Origin: a virus
IMG/VR virus record: IMGVR_UViG_3300025687_000353
Location: 1 to 22,722 of that record
Direction: 5' to 3' (one strand)
DNA: 22,722 nt
Shown here: positions 336 to 17,213 of the stretch, in pieces
How the letters are laid out: each line of letters starts with the position of its first letter
Position numbering within the stretch: position 1 is the first letter of the stretch
The notes under the pieces: model-generated
Databases searched by the model: none
Told to the model about the DNA's origin: nothing
Seen by the model: the letters and a program-made list of their open reading frames with translations, nothing else
Program-made: the position numbers and the translations under genes

Positions 336-2009
336 CTACTGCTGGCCCTGCAAGCTGGTTAGGAGGCCCGGAAGAGCTGGCAACACATATCTGGACGATG
401 TCTGGGGCAGATCGGGCGCGAACAATTGGTTTCGCGCCCATTGCTGACCAGCCGGGGTTGCGACAAATGCGTTAATTGCGCGCGGGGCTTGACTGGACGC
501 CATCGCCGCCATCGCCGCTCCGGTTGGCTCTGCGCCAGCTAGTAGCGCCAAAGCTCCACCAGATACTGCACTCCCAGCGCCGCCCATGCCCATCGCTTTG
601 AGGCGCTCAGATGTTCCAGAGGTCGGGACATTTTCGATGACATTATAACCTGACTTGGCAAGGTCGGCGAGATCACCCTTGCCACGCATGACGTTTCGCC
701 GATTTTGCTTGATTAGCGCATTTTGCAATTGAGACGGCGTAAACACGCCAGATTTGGCCCGTATGGATGCCTCTGCAATCGGGATCAGATTTTTGTAGGA
801 GTTGTTCAAAGTGGCCCACTCTGCCACAAGAGCTGGGTTGCCAGCCGCAGCGGCGGTACGGCCAAGTGCATCATTCAGCGCTGTGCGAGCCTCGATTGCA
901 AACTGACGCAGGTCGGCGTCGCCAGACTTGGCGGCCTCGTCCAGTTGCTGCTTGATGTTTTGATATGCACCGCCAAATATGGTGCCGTTTCCGCTGCGCG
1001 CAGCGGTGATCACCGACTGAATCACATTTTGGGGCCGGGGGGCTGTCCCGCCGTTGAGCGCATAATTTTCTGCGGCATACTTCAGATCGCTGACAAACAT
1101 TGCGTCGAGCGAAATGCCTGATTGGGCCACAAGATCGTCCATCTGCTGGCCGGTCTTGGTAAATGCATCATCGATGACGCTTGGCGTCGCCCTGTCGCCA
1201 GTGATGCCCGCCGTTTTGAGAACTGCACGCATAAACTGATCAGACGTGCGCCCTTGAGCGCGCGACCCTGCCTCTGTCACGCTTTCGCGAAACAGAACGT
1301 CACGCACGCCAGTCGTTTGGCCAGCGGTTGGCTCAATGCCATAGCGCCGCAACACCTCGGCGCTTGCCAACCTGAGTGGATCAGCGCCGCCGCCGGGGGA
1401 GGCCAGCGAGCGAAGTTTCAACTCGGCAGCACCAAGGCCCATCGGCGCGGCCAATGCCGCAGCCAGACGCGCCGGACCCTCCATAGACGTTCCCTCGAAG
1501 AATTGTCCCGCACTCTCTGACGCCACGCCCGGAGCGACGGCTCCATATGCCAGCTTGCGCCCAATGCTGCCCGGTCCAAGCAGCGCGCCGGGAACAAACT
1601 CCGCCCCGGTTTGAGCGTATTTTCCGGGCGTTGTTTTGGCGCGATACGATGGCAACATATCGCCAAACTGGCCCAGCGGCGTTGCACCCTTTTCCGCCGC
1701 CTGTTGCAGCGCGCCTTCGGGGGTGTAGAGGGGCGATGGCATGTCTACTGTTACGGTTCCAAGGCCAGCATTTCCAGCCCCGGTTACGGCTCCAAGCGCC
1801 AAGGCACCAAGGTCGATCAGGCCGGTGATCCCGCGCTGCAACCCCCCGAGACTTGCTTTTGCAACATCCTCGGCGACACCGGGCGCGGGCGCGGCTGGAA
1901 ACTTTTGACGCAGAACCTCCAGAATCTGCTCATCCGACATTGACTTCGGAAAGCGTATCAAAGAGCCGTCTGCCAGCCTAACCGTTACGAAATCGGACGA
2001 TTCGGCCAT
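336..2009 (-). CDS. Putative internal virion / DNA-ejection protein (557 aa)
   Basis: This is the last gene of the minus-strand late operon. Its ATG overlaps the TAA of the muramidase-like gene by one base (TAATG). The N-terminus holds a short segment, VRLADGSLIRFPKSMSDEQI, of the kind found at the start of phage internal proteins. Residues 50-200 are rich in Gly and Ala with hydrophobic stretches around 54-85 and 140-165. A second Gly/Ala-rich hydrophobic stretch lies near the C-terminus (about 475-505). No enzyme motif is visible. Position after two other internal-type proteins, with amphipathic or membrane-seeking segments, fits a protein packed in the capsid and ejected with the DNA, as for the P22 or T7 ejection proteins. 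That role is inferred from position and composition. Confidence 0.6.
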   Translation of the reverse strand: MAESSDFVTVRLADGSLIRFPKSMSDEQILEVLRQKFPAAPAPGVAEDVAKASLGGLQRGITGLIDLGALALGAVTGAGNAGLGTVTVDMPSPLYTPEGALQQAAEKGATPLGQFGDMLPSYRAKTTPGKYAQTGAEFVPGALLGPGSIGRKLAYGAVAPGVASESAGQFFEGTSMEGPARLAAALAAPMGLGAAELKLRSLASPGGGADPLRLASAEVLRRYGIEPTAGQTTGVRDVLFRESVTEAGSRAQGRTSDQFMRAVLKTAGITGDRATPSVIDDAFTKTGQQMDDLVAQSGISLDAMFVSDLKYAAENYALNGGTAPRPQNVIQSVITAARSGNGTIFGGAYQNIKQQLDEAAKSGDADLRQFAIEARTALNDALGRTAAAAGNPALVAEWATLNNSYKNLIPIAEASIRAKSGVFTPSQLQNALIKQNRRNVMRGKGDLADLAKSGYNVIENVPTSGTSERLKAMGMGGAGSAVSGGALALLAGAEPTGAAMAAMASSQAPRAINAFVATPAGQQWARNQLFAPDLPQTSSRYVLPALPGLLTSLQGQQ

Positions 2010-3544
2010 TATTCAAATTCTCCCGTTTGGATGTTATACGTTTTGACACCAGAGCCTACGGCGTCAGAACCGGCACCCTGTTCGAAGTAGTTAGGGTACG
2101 GGATTGGAAGCCCTTTGGCCCGCGCCGCGCGGTTGGAAAATGCGGCCTGCAGATCGCGCAGCGCCTTTTTGTACCCCTCGACCGTTCCGCCGCGCACTTT
2201 GAGGCGGCTTGCTGCGCTGACGGCAGCTTTGCCTTCTGCGTCGCTGACTGGACCGCCACCCTTTAGGGACTCAAAAGCCTCGAGGAAAATTTTGCCCTGA
2301 ATTTGATTGATCTTTGCCAGAATGTCGGCTTCCTCCGGGGAGGTGATGAGCTTGCCGAGACCCTCCGTGGACTTGGACTGACCAAGATAGCCGATCACAT
2401 TGTCCAAATATTGCGAGCTGGTAATTTCATCGACCAGCGAAACGCCCTCGCTCAACTTGTCGGCGTTGGCGTATTGTTTTTGGCGATCGGCAAGTGTCTC
2501 AGCCGCGCGCGTAGCGGCTTGCTTGTTGGGGCGGCCCTGCAGCCAAGCGTTTGCTGCGGCCAAGTCCTCGATAGAGGAAAATTGATCTGCAACAATCTTG
2601 TTTGCGAGTGCATCACTCATCGGTTGATCGGCGGCAGGTTCAGCACCGGGCGCAACGGCAGGTTCAGCACCGGGCGCAACGGCAGGTTCAGCACCGGGCG
2701 CAACGGCAGGCGTGACGCCGGGCGCAACGGCAGGCGTGACGCCGGGCGCAACGGCCATATTCAATTGACGCAAAAGAGCTTGCTCGAGTTGCAGCGCAGA
2801 CGGCGATACGCTACCCGTCGCAGCCCGCTGATCGGAGATTACCTTCTGCACCTCTGTCAGCGCCTCAATGGTCCGCAGCCTAGATGCAATCGCGTTCTGC
2901 GCCTGAGACTGCATCTGCTGATCAATCAGCCGCTGTTCTTGAGCCTGCCTGTAGGCCAACTCTTGGCCATACTGGTGCTCGCGCTGCAGGCCACCCATTG
3001 CTTGGGCGAAGTAATCGCTGCTTTCATTTCGGAGTGCAGCCGCAGCATCACGCAGCGCCGCGAAGCCAAGCATCGTCCGCTGCGATCTGGAAAGCCCATC
3101 GACGCTGAATGGCGTATATCCGCCAGAGACCTGCGGCAGGATGCCGCCGCGAATGTTATTCTGCATAACGCCCACCTTCTTTGGCCCTTCCCACGCACCG
3201 ATACCTTGCTTGTCATAAATCCAGTCCGCAAGACGCCGCTGCATTTGCGGGTCAAAGCGCTCGCTCCCTGTCAGCCCGAGACCCTCTTTGGCTTGTCGCA
3301 GGGTGCTGCCGACGATCTGAAACGCCCCAGCGGGCGTTGCCGTCTTGCCGATTTTCGCCCTGACGCTTTTAGCATATGGCCCAGACGGGTCTTGGAACTG
3401 CAGCACCTCATCGACCGTCATGTCAGATACGTTGACGCCGGAGAACTGGCCACCGGGTCGGTTGACGTAACCAAACAAAGCGTTCTGGTCGCCGCCGCTT
3501 TCGGTGCCAACAATAAGCGGGATGAGGTGCTCTGGGATAGGCAT
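2009..3544 (-). CDS. Internal virion protein with N-terminal muramidase-like domain (511 aa)
   Basis: Residues 5-125 look like a lysozyme-superfamily domain: VGTESGG puts the likely catalytic Glu at position 15, followed by FGY (24-26), TPAGAFQIVGSTL (70-82) and FDPQMQRRLADWIY (97-110). This arrangement resembles GH104-type and virion-associated lytic enzymes. Residues 185-265 are Gln/Glu-rich and probably helical. Residues 264-305 are a Pro/Ala tandem repeat (five 8-residue units), then come further helical segments to the C-terminus. The gene begins on TAATG overlapping the previous stop and couples to the next gene the same way. Probable role: cutting peptidoglycan locally during genome ejection, as in T7 gp16. 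The fold call is by motif only. The lysis endolysin is a separate gene at 8407-9024. Confidence 0.68.
   Translation of the reverse strand: MPIPEHLIPLIVGTESGGDQNALFGYVNRPGGQFSGVNVSDMTVDEVLQFQDPSGPYAKSVRAKIGKTATPAGAFQIVGSTLRQAKEGLGLTGSERFDPQMQRRLADWIYDKQGIGAWEGPKKVGVMQNNIRGGILPQVSGGYTPFSVDGLSRSQRTMLGFAALRDAAAALRNESSDYFAQAMGGLQREHQYGQELAYRQAQEQRLIDQQMQSQAQNAIASRLRTIEALTEVQKVISDQRAATGSVSPSALQLEQALLRQLNMAVAPGVTPAVAPGVTPAVAPGAEPAVAPGAEPAVAPGAEPAADQPMSDALANKIVADQFSSIEDLAAANAWLQGRPNKQAATRAAETLADRQKQYANADKLSEGVSLVDEITSSQYLDNVIGYLGQSKSTEGLGKLITSPEEADILAKINQIQGKIFLEAFESLKGGGPVSDAEGKAAVSAASRLKVRGGTVEGYKKALRDLQAAFSNRAARAKGLPIPYPNYFEQGAGSDAVGSGVKTYNIQTGEFE
2630..2755 (-). repeat. Five-unit 24-bp tandem repeat coding for Ala/Pro linker
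   Basis: Within the muramidase-like gene, about five in-frame 24-base units encode AVAPGVTP (twice) followed by AVAPGAEP (three times). Copies within each sub-type are nearly identical at the DNA level, so copy number could change by slippage or recombination without breaking the frame. The product is likely an extended flexible linker separating the lytic domain and its helical region from the C-terminal part. Confidence 0.9.
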
Positions 3545-4194
3545 TACAGCGCGAACAACTGGCCGAGGGCAGCGATGCTACCAAGAATATTGGGGGACTG
3601 GGTCTGCGTCGTTGTGCCAGCGCCATATGATGGCATTCCCTGCAAGGCCGATAGCACTTGCAGCGGGTAGCCTTGCTGACGCAGGAACTCGTTGTACTGC
3701 ATCTGCAACGCCGCCTGATCAGACGCCTGTTGCGATGCCATCTGCGCCATCGTCTGGCTGGCCGCCTGCGTGTATCCCTGCGACTGCAGGTTGGCAATGG
3801 TCTGCGCCATGTTCACATCGCGCGCCGCCTCTCGCTCGCCCTCGTATACGCCTCGGCGCGATGAGTCGAAAGCGCCAGCGCCGATCACATTGCCAGATTC
3901 ACCTACGCGCTGTTGCGCAAAGCGACGCTCCATCGCCGCCATCGTCGGGTCGATCACATTGGTCTGGAAGCCACCCATGTTTCGGCTGATCAGCGACTGA
4001 TAGTCTTCTGGCGTCATCGCGCCAACGCCAGCCATCCGGGTGTAAATATCTCCAGCCCCTGCCGAGTCGGACAGCGGCGCGTATGACTGCATTGGCGTGT
4101 TTGCCAAGTTCTGCGCATACGGATAAGCCGTCTCTCGGAGGTAACTCTCCATGTATTCGGGCAGCGCCGTCGTTGTCTTGCTCTTTGTGCCCAA
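3544..4194 (-). CDS. Putative internal virion protein, Gln/Ala-rich (216 aa)
   Basis: The frame is open back to a GTG at 4263, but that stretch lies inside the GNAT-like gene. The protein-like part begins GTKSKTTTALPEYMESY, a start I associate with phage internal proteins in this position. I chose the TTG at 4194, which follows the GNAT stop codon directly and has a GGGGG tract about seven bases upstream. The next ATG is at 4152. The first half is mixed. Residues 110-185 are helical and Gln/Ala-rich (MAQTIANLQSQGYTQAASQ), and the tail is hydrophobic (ILGSIAALGQLFAL). It is the first of three successive internal-type genes, each starting on the stop codon of the one before. Function is inferred from position; the start is uncertain. 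Confidence 0.6.
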   Translation of the reverse strand: MGTKSKTTTALPEYMESYLRETAYPYAQNLANTPMQSYAPLSDSAGAGDIYTRMAGVGAMTPEDYQSLISRNMGGFQTNVIDPTMAAMERRFAQQRVGESGNVIGAGAFDSSRRGVYEGEREAARDVNMAQTIANLQSQGYTQAASQTMAQMASQQASDQAALQMQYNEFLRQQGYPLQVLSALQGMPSYGAGTTTQTQSPNILGSIAALGQLFAL

Positions 4195-9624: not shown

Positions 9625-11037
9625 CTACCAAGTCGAAAGCGCCGCGCGCTTCCATGTGTTTGCTGCCACGCAGACATAAATGTAATTGCTGTTCCAGCAG
9701 ATCAGACCGGGGTTACCACCTGCCGACGCGCTGGGCGGGGTTTGGGCCGTGCGAATGCGGATCGCATCCGAGTTCACATCGAGCGCCTCAGTGGGGTTCG
9801 TCGTGCCGATGCCGACAGTGCCATCGCTTTTGATCCGCATCCTTTCAGACGAGTTGGTCGTGAAACGCATCGAGTTGTCCGTATGAAAGTACAACAGCGT
9901 TCCTACTTCGGCGGCGTCAGTGTCCGAAAAAGTCATGCCGCCCGAGGCCCCATTGCCTCCAAGACAGGCCACATATGCGCCCGCTGCGGTCGACCCATTC
10001 CCCGAACTCACTACCACGGTGGTGTTGCCATGCAGAGAGGGCGTGGACGACACGGCTCCACCCAGGCGACTCACCTGCATCCGCGCTACGGGCGTCGTGT
10101 CGCCGATGCCGACCCGGTCGTTGGTCGCGTCAACATAGAGCGTGTTGGTGTCCACGGTCAGACCAGCAAAGGCGGGGCTATCGGTAGTAGCCACCCCTTG
10201 GTTAAGAGCCTTGACGGACGCCTCAGATGTCAGTTCGCTGTCCATGAGTGCGCCTGCAGCCGTGACATTAGTGGCATCTGTTACATCTGCCCCAGACTCG
10301 ATCCCGTCGAGCTTGGTCCCGTCCGTCGCAACATCACGTCCGTCCACGGTACCGCTGACGATAATGTTTCCGTTGATCTCGGCATTACCGACAACATCAA
10401 GCGTTTCAGAGGGGCTAGCGGTACTGATGCCCACCCGGTTGTTCGTGGCATCCACGTAGAGCGTGTTGGTGTCTACGGTCAGCCCCGCAAACGAAGGACT
10501 ATCGGTAGTCGCTACACCTTGGTTGAGAGCTTTGACGGACGATATGGACGCCAACTCGCTGTCCATCAATGCGCCCGCAGCCGTGACGTTAGCGGTATCT
10601 GTTACATCTGCCCCAGCTTCGATGCCAGCCAACTTGGTTTGTTCGGCATCCGTAAATGCGTTAGTGTTTGCGTTGCTCTCGTATGCCGTTTTGATTTCAG
10701 CGGCAGTCTGATCAGCAGTAGCCCCAGCTTCGATGCCGTCGAGCTTGGTGCCGTCCGTAGCGACATCACGGCCATCCACAGTACCGCTGACGATAATGTT
10801 TCCGTTGATCTCGGCATTACCGACAACATCAAGCGCCTCGGTTGGGGTGGCTGTGCCGATGCCCACCCGGTTGTTCGTGGCATCCACGTAGAGCGTGTTG
10901 GTATCGACTGTTAGGCCGGAAAATGATGGCGCGTCGCCGCTCTGATATTTGTCGGAATTAAGATTGTTGAAGTTGGCATCAACCTCATCATGCGTGAGGG
11001 CCGACCCTTTTCCAGCTCTGGTTACAATGGTTGACAT
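9625..11037 (-). CDS. Modular repeat-containing tail fibre protein (470 aa)
   Basis: The N-terminal TRAGKGSALTHDEVDANFNNLN is a common fibre attachment module. The shaft is built from long repeats: DTNTLYVDATN(N/D)RVGI at 45, 189 and 296; EALDVVGNAEINGNIIVSGT-type segments at 68 and 212; DGRDVATDGTKLDGIE twice; and GALMDSEL/SVKALNQGVATTDS twice. Residues 320-470 are a distinct tip with GTVGIGTTNPTEALDV near 407 and a C-terminal LICWNSNYIYVCVAANTWKRAAL, a small terminal domain found in many fibres. VGIGT-x-x-P repeats are usual in trimeric beta-rich fibres. The DNA repeats are near-identical, so the gene is a recombination hotspot. The ATG at 11037 has GGGG seven bases upstream. Confidence 0.8.
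   Translation of the reverse strand: MSTIVTRAGKGSALTHDEVDANFNNLNSDKYQSGDAPSFSGLTVDTNTLYVDATNNRVGIGTATPTEALDVVGNAEINGNIIVSGTVDGRDVATDGTKLDGIEAGATADQTAAEIKTAYESNANTNAFTDAEQTKLAGIEAGADVTDTANVTAAGALMDSELASISSVKALNQGVATTDSPSFAGLTVDTNTLYVDATNNRVGISTASPSETLDVVGNAEINGNIIVSGTVDGRDVATDGTKLDGIESGADVTDATNVTAAGALMDSELTSEASVKALNQGVATTDSPAFAGLTVDTNTLYVDATNDRVGIGDTTPVARMQVSRLGGAVSSTPSLHGNTTVVVSSGNGSTAAGAYVACLGGNGASGGMTFSDTDAAEVGTLLYFHTDNSMRFTTNSSERMRIKSDGTVGIGTTNPTEALDVNSDAIRIRTAQTPPSASAGGNPGLICWNSNYIYVCVAANTWKRAALSTW
10294..10491 (-). repeat. Long fibre-gene repeat, copy 2
   Basis: Codes for residues 183-248 of the repeat fibre and pairs with the copy at 10726-10923. A third, truncated copy (residues 290-313, 10099-10170) holds only the DTNTLYVDATNDRVGIGD part. 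Spacing between the DTNTLY starts is 144 and then 107 codons, so the third unit looks like a partial duplication or a deletion. Confidence 0.82.
10726..10923 (-). repeat. Long fibre-gene repeat, copy 1
   Basis: Codes for residues 39-104 of the repeat fibre. It is highly similar at the DNA level to 10294-10491. The longest shared stretches cover the region coding GNAEINGNIIVSGTVDG and the DTNTLYVDATN segment. Confidence 0.85.
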
Positions 11038-11050
11038 TGCGCGGCCCCAA

Positions 11051-11434
11051 TCAGTCCAAGGTTACATCGATGTCGCCAGCCGGGAACCGCAACACGTCGC
11101 CGGTATCAATGGCCCTCGACGCAGACAGCGATGCATACGCGATCTGCGACCCAGCCGTAGCATGGTCAAAGATTGCAGCGTGTGTGACTGTACCCCAAGA
11201 ACCCGTCGCGGTCGGAAATTCAACAGCACTGGTGTTGCTGGCGGTGTCCCCGCTGACGCTCAAGGTCACGGCGATACGTGAGTAATTGTTTCCAGTGATT
11301 TCGGTGGCACCGCCGCCGGTTTCACCGGGATTGGCGGTGAACAGGCCAACATACCACACAGTCGGGCGTGTGACGCTGTCTGCCGTAAACGCCCACTTTA
11401 GGATGTTCGTCTCATACGTATTCGAGAAGCTCAT
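11051..11434 (-). CDS. Tail fibre-like phage protein (127 aa)
   Basis: The ATG at 11434 was chosen over a TTG at 11479; it is preceded by AGGGA about eight bases away. The sequence starts MSFSNTYETNILKWAF and continues VWYVGLFTANPGETGGGATEITGNNYSRIAVTL, EFPTATGSWGTVTHAAIFD and a terminal GDVLRFPAGDIDVTLD. This is a clear match to a very common small phage family (YVALxTAxP...EvxGxxYxRxxV...FPxATxxWGxVTHxxIfD...) usually labelled tail fibre protein. It lies directly before the large repeat fibre gene, with 13 bases between them. Likely a beta-sandwich virion or tail component. The family match is confident; the exact position in the virion is not known to me. Confidence 0.75.
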   Translation of the reverse strand: MSFSNTYETNILKWAFTADSVTRPTVWYVGLFTANPGETGGGATEITGNNYSRIAVTLSVSGDTASNTSAVEFPTATGSWGTVTHAAIFDHATAGSQIAYASLSASRAIDTGDVLRFPAGDIDVTLD

Positions 11435-11493
11435 AGCCAAGTTCCCTGATGCCTGATTATTTCTACCACGCCACGCCAAAACACGATAGTGAA

Positions 11494-11883
11494 CTACGTT
11501 TGCAGCAGGCGCTCCATGTCTGACGTTTCCGCGTCGTTGCTGAAAAATTCACAAGGAACGCGCAATGTTGCGCGTTCCGGAACGCGCAATGTTGCGCGCT
11601 TTGGAAGATCGCTGATGGTCAGTAGTCGCACGGCCATTCTATCGCACGTGAAAAGAGCAACAATGTCGCAGTGACTGATGTTGCCGATGTAAAACTTGTA
11701 TTTTCTCGAGGTCTCGCAAGAACTTGACGACTTGACTTCGACCCTGATCATGCGCTCGGACGGCGTGCAAACAAGCAGATCGTACCTATCGGAAACGTGG
11801 AATACATCAAAGCCAGCAAGTGTCATCTTTCCGGCGACTATGAACTCACCGGCCCTGCCGATCCTTGTTGGCGATGACTTCAT
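11494..11883 (-). CDS. Small PD-(D/E)XK endonuclease-like protein (129 aa)
   Basis: The order of motifs fits a small PD-(D/E)XK nuclease of the Hjc / intron-endonuclease type: a helix with E13 (RIGRAGEFIVAGKMTLAGFDVF), D35 in SDRYDLLVC, and E49-V-E/V-K51 in RMIRVEVKSSS, with the catalytic Lys at 51. Residues 62-80 (YKFYIGNISHCDIVALFTC) provide the next strands. The ATG overlaps the stop of the adaptor gene (TGATG). It sits between capsid-adaptor and fibre genes, where no nuclease is needed for assembly. By rough count its GC is about 52 percent, lower than neighbours, suggesting a later arrival. It could be a free-standing homing-type nuclease, a junction resolvase or a defence/exclusion factor. 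Residues 97-112 contain a tandem RATLRVP duplication. Confidence 0.68.
   Translation of the reverse strand: MKSSPTRIGRAGEFIVAGKMTLAGFDVFHVSDRYDLLVCTPSERMIRVEVKSSSSCETSRKYKFYIGNISHCDIVALFTCDRMAVRLLTISDLPKRATLRVPERATLRVPCEFFSNDAETSDMERLLQT
11555..11602. repeat. Tandem 24-bp palindromic unit inside the nuclease gene
   Basis: The first unit (11555-11578) is an inverted repeat with 11-base perfect arms, GGAACGCGCAA and TTGCGCGTTCC, around a TG centre. The second (11579-11602) repeats the first 20 or so bases exactly, then diverges, leaving 7-base perfect inner arms. The units are in frame and code RATLRVPE then RATLRVPC. The second copy could fold against the first as well. Confidence 0.93.
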
Positions 11884-12503
11884 CAGGCCATAGCCTTCGC
11901 TCGCATTCTGATCGAGGACGAGCCAATTCTCGCTCGGTCGCTTTGGACCGAAAGGGACTCAACAGCCTGCCTGTAGAGGCCACCCCACACGGAGATCCTC
12001 TCATCGTCCTTGAGGTATGGTGCGGCCTGCAGGAGCGTGCCGTACAGGTACACATCCGGGGCTGCAGTCAGCAGCCAGTTCTGCGCGACACTGTTAGACA
12101 GTGCGTCAATCTTGGCGTAGTACGTCAGCTCGCCGTCATATGTGCCATCCGGCGTGGGCACGACTTGGAACTCAGAGCCAATCATGGTGAAGAACAGGGG
12201 CTTCCCATTGGACGACCGCAGGGAAAGCTCTTCAGCGGCCTGATCCGGCGTCACATATTCGAGCGTGACTACTGGGGACGTGTTAAGTTGGAACCGGATG
12301 TTCTGCAGCCAGTCAGACGGCACAGCGGTATACCCGCTGTCGATCTCAGCGGTGGCGCGCTTGATCATGCGGTAGTCGCGCACCTCGCGCTGTATTGCCG
12401 CCTCGGCGAGGGAAATGAATGTCGGGATGACAGATGTCAGATCATCCCTAATAAGCCAATCAGCGACAGCAGATTTCAGCTCGGTATACGTGGTAATGCT
12501 CAC
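11883..12503 (-). CDS. Head-to-tail adaptor protein (206 aa)
   Basis: The GTG start overlaps the upstream TGA (GTGA) and has GAGGTG about seven bases before it. The sequence follows the SU10/P22 gp4-type adaptor pattern: TTYTELKSAVADWLIRDDLTSVIPTFISLAEAAIQREVRDYRM at the N-terminus, then GYTAVPSDWLQNIRFQL, FQVVPTPDGTYDGELTYYAKIDALS, and a C-terminal helix with WLLTAAPDVYLYGTLLQAAPYLKDDERI...W. These proteins form the ring that binds the portal and receives the tail. The length of about 200 residues is normal. Position two genes after the capsid protein agrees. Confidence 0.78.
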   Translation of the reverse strand: MSITTYTELKSAVADWLIRDDLTSVIPTFISLAEAAIQREVRDYRMIKRATAEIDSGYTAVPSDWLQNIRFQLNTSPVVTLEYVTPDQAAEELSLRSSNGKPLFFTMIGSEFQVVPTPDGTYDGELTYYAKIDALSNSVAQNWLLTAAPDVYLYGTLLQAAPYLKDDERISVWGGLYRQAVESLSVQSDRARIGSSSIRMRAKAMA

Positions 12504-14851: not shown

Positions 14852-15100
14852 TCACTTGACCCGCTTCTGCGCAACGGCACCCGCATCAACCAAAGCTTTG
14901 AGGTATATTCGGATGTGATCGACGCTCAGAAGTCGAGCGTGGAGCATTTCTAGCTCCTTGGTGTCACCCGCTTTTGCGATCTTCATGGAGGCGAAGACCT
15001 CGCCCTCCATGTCGGCGAGGAAGCGAGACAAGTCCTCGTCGTCCAGCAGCCGCGATGCCGCGCGGGCATCGCGGATATGATCTTCCTTCGTCTTACTCAC
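14852..15100 (-). CDS. Small helical protein after portal gene (82 aa)
   Basis: The GTG start at 15100 lies inside the end of the portal gene (8-base overlap). No ATG occurs until residue 31, and an AGAGA-type weak SD precedes it. The product is nearly all charged helix: MSKTKEDHIRDARAASRLLDDEDLSRFLADMEGEVFASM, then a second helix from ELEMLHARLLSVDHIRIYLKALVDAG. Small helical proteins in this position occur in several podoviruses, but I cannot give a named function. A portal accessory or assembly factor would be the first guess, from position alone. Confidence 0.66.
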   Translation of the reverse strand: MSKTKEDHIRDARAASRLLDDEDLSRFLADMEGEVFASMKIAKAGDTKELEMLHARLLSVDHIRIYLKALVDAGAVAQKRVK

Positions 15101-17213
15101 TGACGGCGTCTCTGATCATCTGAGCCTCTGCCTTGAAGGCGTCGCGATCAATCGACGTTTCTCGCTTGATGCGCTCAACCTCCAACTGGGTGCCGTATTT
15201 TGCCTTCATCTCTTCGGCGGTCACGTACAGGTCCAGTTCCATCTTGTCGCGCGCGAGGTTGTCTTCCATCGCCATCTTTTCCCGCTGCAGATCAAGGTCT
15301 GCGGCCTTTTTCTGCATGTCAGCCTGAATTTGCTGAATTTGAACGGCAATCAGTTGCTCGTTGATGTCGGGCTGCTTTGGCTCCTGCGGCGGCGGCTGGA
15401 ATTGAGCCGGATCGGTCCAGAACTTTTGCGTATCCTTGAAGCCCGCGAGCTTCGTCATCTCGACAAGCGTATTGTACATGCGCGACATGTCGGTCAGGGG
15501 ATTCACCGGACCCATCGTTGCCATCGCCTCTTTCTGCATTTCACCGATCTGGCGCAGCATCGCCATGCGCTCAACATCAGTGCCACGGCCAAGGGCAATG
15601 TTCACCGTCACGTCCATCGTTGCATCCCACCAACGCGGATCGATAGGCACAAACTCGTTGCGAAGGCGAACCATCCGCGCGCCATCTTGGTGCTTGCACA
15701 CAAGGCGCAGGATGCCACGAAACAGGTCACGCATACCCGTTTCGGCAAAGATTCGCGCGATCATCTCAATATGCTGCGCTGCGGCATTAACCGTGGCGTT
15801 GACCGCAGACGCCGTCGAGGACTGCAGGGCGTCAGCGTCCAGACCGGCAGCGGCCTTCGAAATGCCGGTGCGCGAATGTTTGATCTCGTCCATGTATTGC
15901 AGAACGGGGAATGCTTGCTGACCGACAAATGGCATCGCAATCGGCTGCACCTGACCCGCAGATCGTTGGCGGATGATGCCGCCAACCTCTGTGTTCATAA
16001 CGTCTTCGAGGTTTACCTGACCCTCGGTGATCGCAATGCGCGGGTGGATGGCCATCGCCAAGCTGTCCAGCGTGTTACGCATGATGACCGACTTGATGCG
16101 CTGGATGTCCATGACAACGTCAGCAGACGAAATGCCAAAAAACTCATGCGGCTCTGGGTCGGGCGTAAACGAGGCGAATGGAGCAAAATCGCACGCCTCG
16201 TCCATCAGGACGGTGTACCCGCCGCCCGCCACACACACTTTGCGAAGCTCGGCAATGCCATCTCCGTCGCGGTCAACGCGGATATAGGCCTCGATATACG
16301 TGACCTTGCGCATCGCGTCGTCCCGGCGATCTGCAGTGCGCGAGGTTAGCGCCGGGTTGCGGGTGTAGCGCTCGACGTTCATGTCCATCTTGTCGGTGTC
16401 TGACGCCAGTGACTGCACGTCGTCGGCGTCATATCCCATCGCGATCAGGTCTGACACAGTCACGACGCGGCGGTGACCCACGAAGTCGGCGTCCTTGATG
16501 CTCTTGGCACGACGGTCGATCAGGAACTCTTCCGGCGGAACTGCCTCCACCTTGACGCGCCCGGTTGACACGCGCCGCGTCGCACGCACGTCGTGCATCA
16601 TCGGCGGCTCCATTCCGAGTGCCATGAGTTCGTCGGGGATCTCAGCAGCCGGGTAGCTGGAAACAACGTCCAAAGAGATGTCCCGATCCGACGCGAGTAG
16701 CGCCAGCGCCGCATCGTCAAGACCAGACATTTCCGACGTGCTCGTCTCCACGGACTGGTCCCAGAAGAACTTGATGATCCCGTTCTTTCGGATCAGGGCG
16801 TCCTTGAATGCCGCATGAAGCTCTACGAAGCCATTGTTATCATTGTTGAAAATGTAGTTTACATATTCCGTTGCCTGCGCTGCGGACGCAACATCTTCGG
16901 CGTTGCGAGGCGCAAACTCAACCGTTCTGTCGCTTGACGTAAACACGCGCATGAGCGACGGCATGATCGCCTGAACCGTGTCTCGCACATCCATGCTGAC
17001 GACCTGACTGCGACCATCTTCCTCGTCGCCGTATGGCTCGCCTCGATAATATTCTGTCGCCCTTGCTCGCGCTGGCGAAACAATATTATCGATAAAATCA
17101 ATTGCATCGTCAATTTCGTTGCGGACGATGCCCTGCAGCTTCTCGTCTGACATCCAGTTAGGATTGATGGCCTCCTGAACCTCGCCGACCAGATCGTTTA
17201 CTTCGTAGGCCAT
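15093..17213 (-). CDS. Portal protein, P22-like (706 aa)
   Basis: The length and pattern fit the P22-like portal group: an N-terminal helical region (WMSDEKLQGIVRNEIDDAIDF, then RARATEYYRGEPYGDEEDGRSQVVSMDVRDTVQAIMPSLMRVF), a central wing with VKVEAVPPEEFLIDRRAKSI and YIEAYIRVDRDGDGIAELRKVCVAG, the stem/crown helices (FFGISSADVVMDIQRIKSVIMRNTLDSL), and a C-terminal coiled coil from about 605 to 700 (IQQIQADMQKKAADLDLQREKM). Twelve copies would form the vertex through which DNA enters and leaves and to which the adaptor binds. The ATG has GAGG seven bases upstream, inside the end of the 47-residue ORF. Confidence 0.88.
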   Translation of the reverse strand: MAYEVNDLVGEVQEAINPNWMSDEKLQGIVRNEIDDAIDFIDNIVSPARARATEYYRGEPYGDEEDGRSQVVSMDVRDTVQAIMPSLMRVFTSSDRTVEFAPRNAEDVASAAQATEYVNYIFNNDNNGFVELHAAFKDALIRKNGIIKFFWDQSVETSTSEMSGLDDAALALLASDRDISLDVVSSYPAAEIPDELMALGMEPPMMHDVRATRRVSTGRVKVEAVPPEEFLIDRRAKSIKDADFVGHRRVVTVSDLIAMGYDADDVQSLASDTDKMDMNVERYTRNPALTSRTADRRDDAMRKVTYIEAYIRVDRDGDGIAELRKVCVAGGGYTVLMDEACDFAPFASFTPDPEPHEFFGISSADVVMDIQRIKSVIMRNTLDSLAMAIHPRIAITEGQVNLEDVMNTEVGGIIRQRSAGQVQPIAMPFVGQQAFPVLQYMDEIKHSRTGISKAAAGLDADALQSSTASAVNATVNAAAQHIEMIARIFAETGMRDLFRGILRLVCKHQDGARMVRLRNEFVPIDPRWWDATMDVTVNIALGRGTDVERMAMLRQIGEMQKEAMATMGPVNPLTDMSRMYNTLVEMTKLAGFKDTQKFWTDPAQFQPPPQEPKQPDINEQLIAVQIQQIQADMQKKAADLDLQREKMAMEDNLARDKMELDLYVTAEEMKAKYGTQLEVERIKRETSIDRDAFKAEAQMIRDAVSE

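Follow-up and report, generated by a model that had tools for sequence, protein, structure and literature searches.

Introduction

How a pair of palindromic 24-nt units came to lie in frame within a phage nuclease-like gene, and whether the pair has any function there, is the question raised by this locus of the window, the whole 22,722-base IMG/VR record analyzed here.

Anatomy of the repeat

The plus-strand letters at 11555–11602 read GGAACGCGCAATGTTGCGCGTTCC and then GGAACGCGCAATGTTGCGCGCTTT (Table 1), and TRF assigns this repeat a period of 24 with 95% matches. The preliminary description presented it as a duplicated palindrome with 11-nt perfect arms. The head-to-tail 24-nt repeat holds, but the 11-nt perfect arms are found in the first unit only: unit 2 (GGAACGCGCAATGTTGCGCGCTTT) is identical to unit 1 at 21 of 24 positions, all three mismatches falling among the last four bases, and keeps perfect core arms of 7 nt (CGCGCAA/TTGCGCG). 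That account had also left unmentioned that the junction between the units forms another perfect palindrome, in which GGAACGCGCAA is the reverse complement of the adjoining TTGCGCGTTCC, as expected of template switching. In coding order, the layout is CCAAAG-X-GGAA-X-TTGTGAA, with X being CGCGCAACATTGCGCGTTCC, and the linker GGAA reverse-complements the TTCC immediately preceding it. In dinucleotide shuffles of the window, the 24-mer with up to three mismatches is expected 0.00 times, and at least one inverted repeat with arms of at least 11 nt and a loop of at most 8 nt occurs in 6 of 100 shuffles; the tandem copy is therefore far beyond chance, and a single palindrome by itself is only moderately unusual.

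Table 1. Coordinates of the repeat, the gene that contains it, and the adjoining genes in the window.
Feature	Position	Strand	Remarks
gp80-like fibre protein gene	11051..11479	-	downstream of nuclease
PD-(D/E)XK nuclease-like ORF, 129 aa, phrog_5018	11494..11883	-	extra block within residues 96–110
Unit 1, GGAACGCGCAA TG TTGCGCGTTCC	11555..11578	+	perfect 11-nt arms; on the minus strand, the downstream one of the gene's two units
Joint palindrome, TTGCGCGTTCC joined to GGAACGCGCAA	11568..11589	.	perfect, loop 0
Linker GGAA, 4 nt	11575..11578	-	separates two 20-nt identical stretches
Unit 2, GGAACGCGCAATGTTGCGCG CTTT	11579..11602	+	imperfect head-to-tail copy; 7-nt perfect core arms
SU10-type adaptor gene	11883..12503	-	upstream, 1-nt overlap with nuclease

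The nuclease and its slot

Both units are read in frame in the minus-strand nuclease ORF as RATLRVPE-RATLRVP, and this translation bears out the earlier statement that an in-frame 24-nt duplication gives a PD-(D/E)XK protein one additional RATLRVP block. Alignment motifs and the predicted fold both uphold its classification as a nuclease. The conserved positions are D35, E49-x-K51, G9, and GE12-13; D35 and V50-K51 are invariant across 25 sequences, and the E position is E49 in the window (E49-V-K51) and E or Q in the homologues. The D...E-x-K active-site residues are present on the core sheet of the AlphaFold model (pLDDT 87.6, pTM 0.82), whose best fold match is I-Ssp6803I (Foldseek 1e-5; VIA-align Z 13.0, rmsd 2.7, 114 residues aligned), followed by Hjc resolvases and SPARDA nucleases at Z of about 10 in VIA-align. 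The protein matches phrog_5018 at 1e-7, and its Pfam PDDEXK_5 score of 15 bits falls below the cut-off of 26.1 and hence outside profile membership. It resembles I-Ssp6803I (PDB 2ost) in its predicted PD-(D/E)XK fold, I-Ssp6803I ranking top in both Foldseek and VIA-align; however, the identity is 15%, PDDEXK_5 is below its cut-off, and no group I intron is in evidence.

Of the adaptor loci fetched, nine carry the nuclease gene after the adaptor, whereas gp80 directly follows the adaptor in 15 others (loci compared: L004–L010 and L016 with the nuclease; L017, L018, L022, L023, L051, and L052 without it). The nuclease is about 35% identical to its relatives, as against over 80% for the adaptor, and in the closest relatives with the same slot (L004–L008) the respective values are just 33–36% and 81–83%. 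These comparisons indicate that phages may have or lack the nuclease gene in this slot and that it diverges fast there. Given its strong divergence relative to its neighbors and its I-Ssp6803I-like fold, it behaves as an exchangeable, optional cassette, and a putative free-standing homing-type nuclease at a virion gene junction is a reasonable interpretation. The surrounding gene is the larger lead at this locus: it encodes an I-Ssp6803I-like nuclease that SU10-like phages either carry or lack between two virion genes, and its divergence is far greater than that of the neighboring genes.

In some relatives (L015, at 1966–3583, L016, and L098), the same slot downstream of the adaptor is occupied by at least two additional small genes, including those for a small membrane-type protein and a lysis-type enzyme, which suggests a cargo site after the adaptor.

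A unit gained in one lineage

An adaptor search, a nuclease profile search, and Roseobacter phage CRP-821 together gave 25 distinct nuclease homologues, 21–38% identical to the window protein; neither a single-sequence scan nor a profile search of genome contigs yielded closer ones. When the units were counted in the alignment, as had been proposed, all 25 had one, and the extra residues were confined to the window; the closest homologues are shorter by exactly 8 aa (24 nt) at the repeat site. Since every homologue has a single unit and lacks the extra 8 aa, the comparison indicates that the lineage of the window acquired the second unit. Such presence and absence at the repeat site is expected of any insertion. 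We infer a one-unit ancestor from the length difference, which is clear; at 21–38% identity, the ancestral DNA is not visible in the alignment. The single-unit state of all 25 homologues argues against a conserved protein repeat, the reading that would have been indicated had both units been present throughout.

In the AlphaFold model, the downstream copy forms the terminal core strand (residues 106–110), and the upstream copy lies in a linker of lower confidence (mean pLDDT of 72 for block 91–100). Because the extra unit maps to this linker, the additional eight residues, placed in a predicted flexible segment before the last core strand, were probably tolerated rather than selected.

Origin of the second unit

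The repeat probably reflects a 24-nt insertion, in frame and specific to this lineage, that one template switch during replication introduced into an optional phage nuclease gene; this is the simplest history for it, and one that the preliminary description did not raise. The ancestor would have carried a single 20-nt stretch, reading CGCGCAA, CA, TTGCGCG, and TTCC on the coding strand and able to form a 7-bp hairpin. After TTCC, the growing end would have turned back on itself and used its own TTGCGCGTTCC as the template for GGAACGCGCAA; it would then have returned to the original template at the identical CGCGCAA, so that CATTGCGCGTTCC was copied again. Such an event would produce a second unit that is itself a perfect 24-nt inverted repeat, and the joint would carry a perfect 22-nt palindrome. 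Under this scheme, unit 1 would be the inserted 24 nt, unit 2 the ancestral quasipalindrome, and the joint palindrome the expected fold-back joint; because the net gain is 24 nt, the frame would be kept and the protein lengthened by eight residues. Both the switching step and the tolerance of the insertion are what we infer from the present sequence.

The imperfect inverted repeat assigned to the ancestor would correspond to the 7-nt arms CGCGCAA/TTGCGCG of the upstream unit; no close relative displays it. Several features fit the template-switch history. Two perfect 11-nt inverted repeats overlap, one lying precisely across the joint and the other in the new unit. A four-point template switch from a one-unit ancestor explains the sequence with zero substitutions and an 11-nt template. 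After a plain tandem duplication, the copies would be separated by AAAG, TTGT, or a mixture of the two, and the best fit needs three substitutions. The flexibility of the switch model was assessed with all 189 linkers that differ from AAAG by at least three changes. A short (4-nt) switch solution within 30 nt was available for 54 of the 189 random linkers, which leaves template length as the one informative measure, and the mere existence of a solution was dropped as evidence for being too weak. Templates of at least 8 nt were obtained for 10 of the 189 linkers, and a template of 11 nt for GGAA alone. At roughly one in two hundred, this sequence-based test favors a template switch as moderate evidence, not as proof.

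The class of mutation is already established in phage T4, E. coli, and yeast. The earliest descriptions of quasipalindrome template switching concern phage T4 rIIB and yeast CYC1, and the process is also known in E. coli (PMC7202029). As in the T4 rIIB and E. coli thyA mutations, the proposed event would start from an imperfect inverted repeat, involve self-copying by the nascent strand, and leave a more perfect repeat (PMC7202029); unlike in those cases, a displaced return point would add a whole 24-nt unit instead of correcting an arm alone, and the event is deduced from one sequence. Template switching can create perfect hairpin stems in one event (PMC8794818), and the reverse-complement copy beside its template, with a perfect stem at the joint, is shared with such cases, which concern the histories of RNA genes, whereas the present one lies in frame in a phage protein gene. 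Template-switch mutations also alter proteins in yeast (PMC8604942). The locus would offer a clean case in which one local copying error gave a phage gene perfect palindromes together with an extra in-frame block of peptide sequence, and such a scar could be taken for a mobile palindrome or for a control element that had been designed.

Alternative explanations

Slippage offers another, though unlikely, route, in which a perfect single palindrome underwent plain 24-nt tandem duplication and the upstream copy then acquired three substitutions. Duplications of that kind are common, the same phage bears another 24-nt in-frame tandem array (2632–2755), the 21/24 identity is compatible, and the identical sequence results if the first copy undergoes three changes (GGAA to AAAG) once duplicated. 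Nevertheless, the three required substitutions are clustered in 4 nt, and the ancestor must already have carried a perfect palindrome with 11-nt arms, of the kind seen in just 6 of 100 shuffles.

An artefact of metagenomic-contig assembly or amplification is improbable. Fold-back chimeras are known in amplified DNA, and the repeat comes from a single contig; however, the reading frame is kept, the ORF is intact in all other respects, and a simple biological event fits the sequence.

It is likewise very doubtful that the repeat is a selected cis-element, either an mRNA hairpin pair or a binding or cleavage site, controlling the nuclease gene or the downstream gp80 gene. The coding-strand RNA of the repeat is indeed predicted to adopt a two-hairpin fold at -30.7 kcal/mol, with a z of -3.7 relative to shuffles. 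However, no comparable palindrome occurs in the 3' part of any homologous nuclease gene, including those in the same slot, which weighs against the suggestion of a conserved hairpin pair controlling the gene; terminator prediction on the coding strand gave no call at the repeat; the 3' 150 nt are about as stable overall in same-slot relatives (about -57 to -47 vs. -51 kcal/mol); and the rest of the window contains no other site resembling the 24-mer. That the palindrome is the nuclease's own DNA site, as had also been suggested, is unlikely because no second copy was found anywhere and a cutter bearing its own target would cut itself. Very improbable, too, is the broader proposal that selection maintains the tandem palindrome as part of a free-standing homing-type nuclease gene, for instance as an RNA hairpin pair or a self-recognized site that limits the nuclease's own expression or tags its allele.

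The proposed search for the 24-mer outside the repeat also found no further copy in the phage relatives and sequence collections. With a central YR, it is absent from IMG/VR, and with any two central bases, it is absent from the GTDB species genomes; its 18-nt core is absent from IMG/VR, and its 14-nt core, even allowing one mismatch, has no site in the records of the seven closest adaptor relatives. Distant blastn searches of phage and plasmid collections gave only partial matches at chance level (E 0.6 or worse). Dispersed copies, which a mobile element should leave, were thus found in neither the window, the phage relatives searched, IMG/VR, nor the GTDB species genomes. The lack of the 24-mer elsewhere, together with the lack of a comparable palindrome in the homologues, argues against both a mobile element and a conserved hairpin. 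Rickettsia palindromic elements are about 150 bp long, occur in many dispersed copies, and are palindromic and in frame inside protein genes (PMC10969869); the window unit is likewise palindromic, in frame within a protein gene, and confined to its own lineage, but at only 24 nt, with no other copy found and with local copying from the adjoining ancestral copy accounting for its sequence, the earlier idea of a scar left by a small inserted element of this type is scarcely tenable. The insertion thus looks like an ordinary mutation that the protein tolerates, and not like a mobile element or a control signal.

Other repeats in the window

Three further repeats were observed in the window. A 24-nt in-frame tandem repeat of 5.2 copies (PAVAPGAE/PAVAPGVT) occupies 2632–2755 in a 511-aa minus-strand ORF (2009–3544). 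Long direct repeats at 10105–10929, of 209 nt at 87% and 213 nt at 81%, lie in a 470-aa fibre-like ORF (9625–11037), which represents an internally duplicated fibre protein. An inverted repeat with 10-nt arms and a loop of 5 is located at 15050–15074, near the 5' end of a small minus-strand ORF (14852–15100) that adjoins the portal gene (15093–17213).
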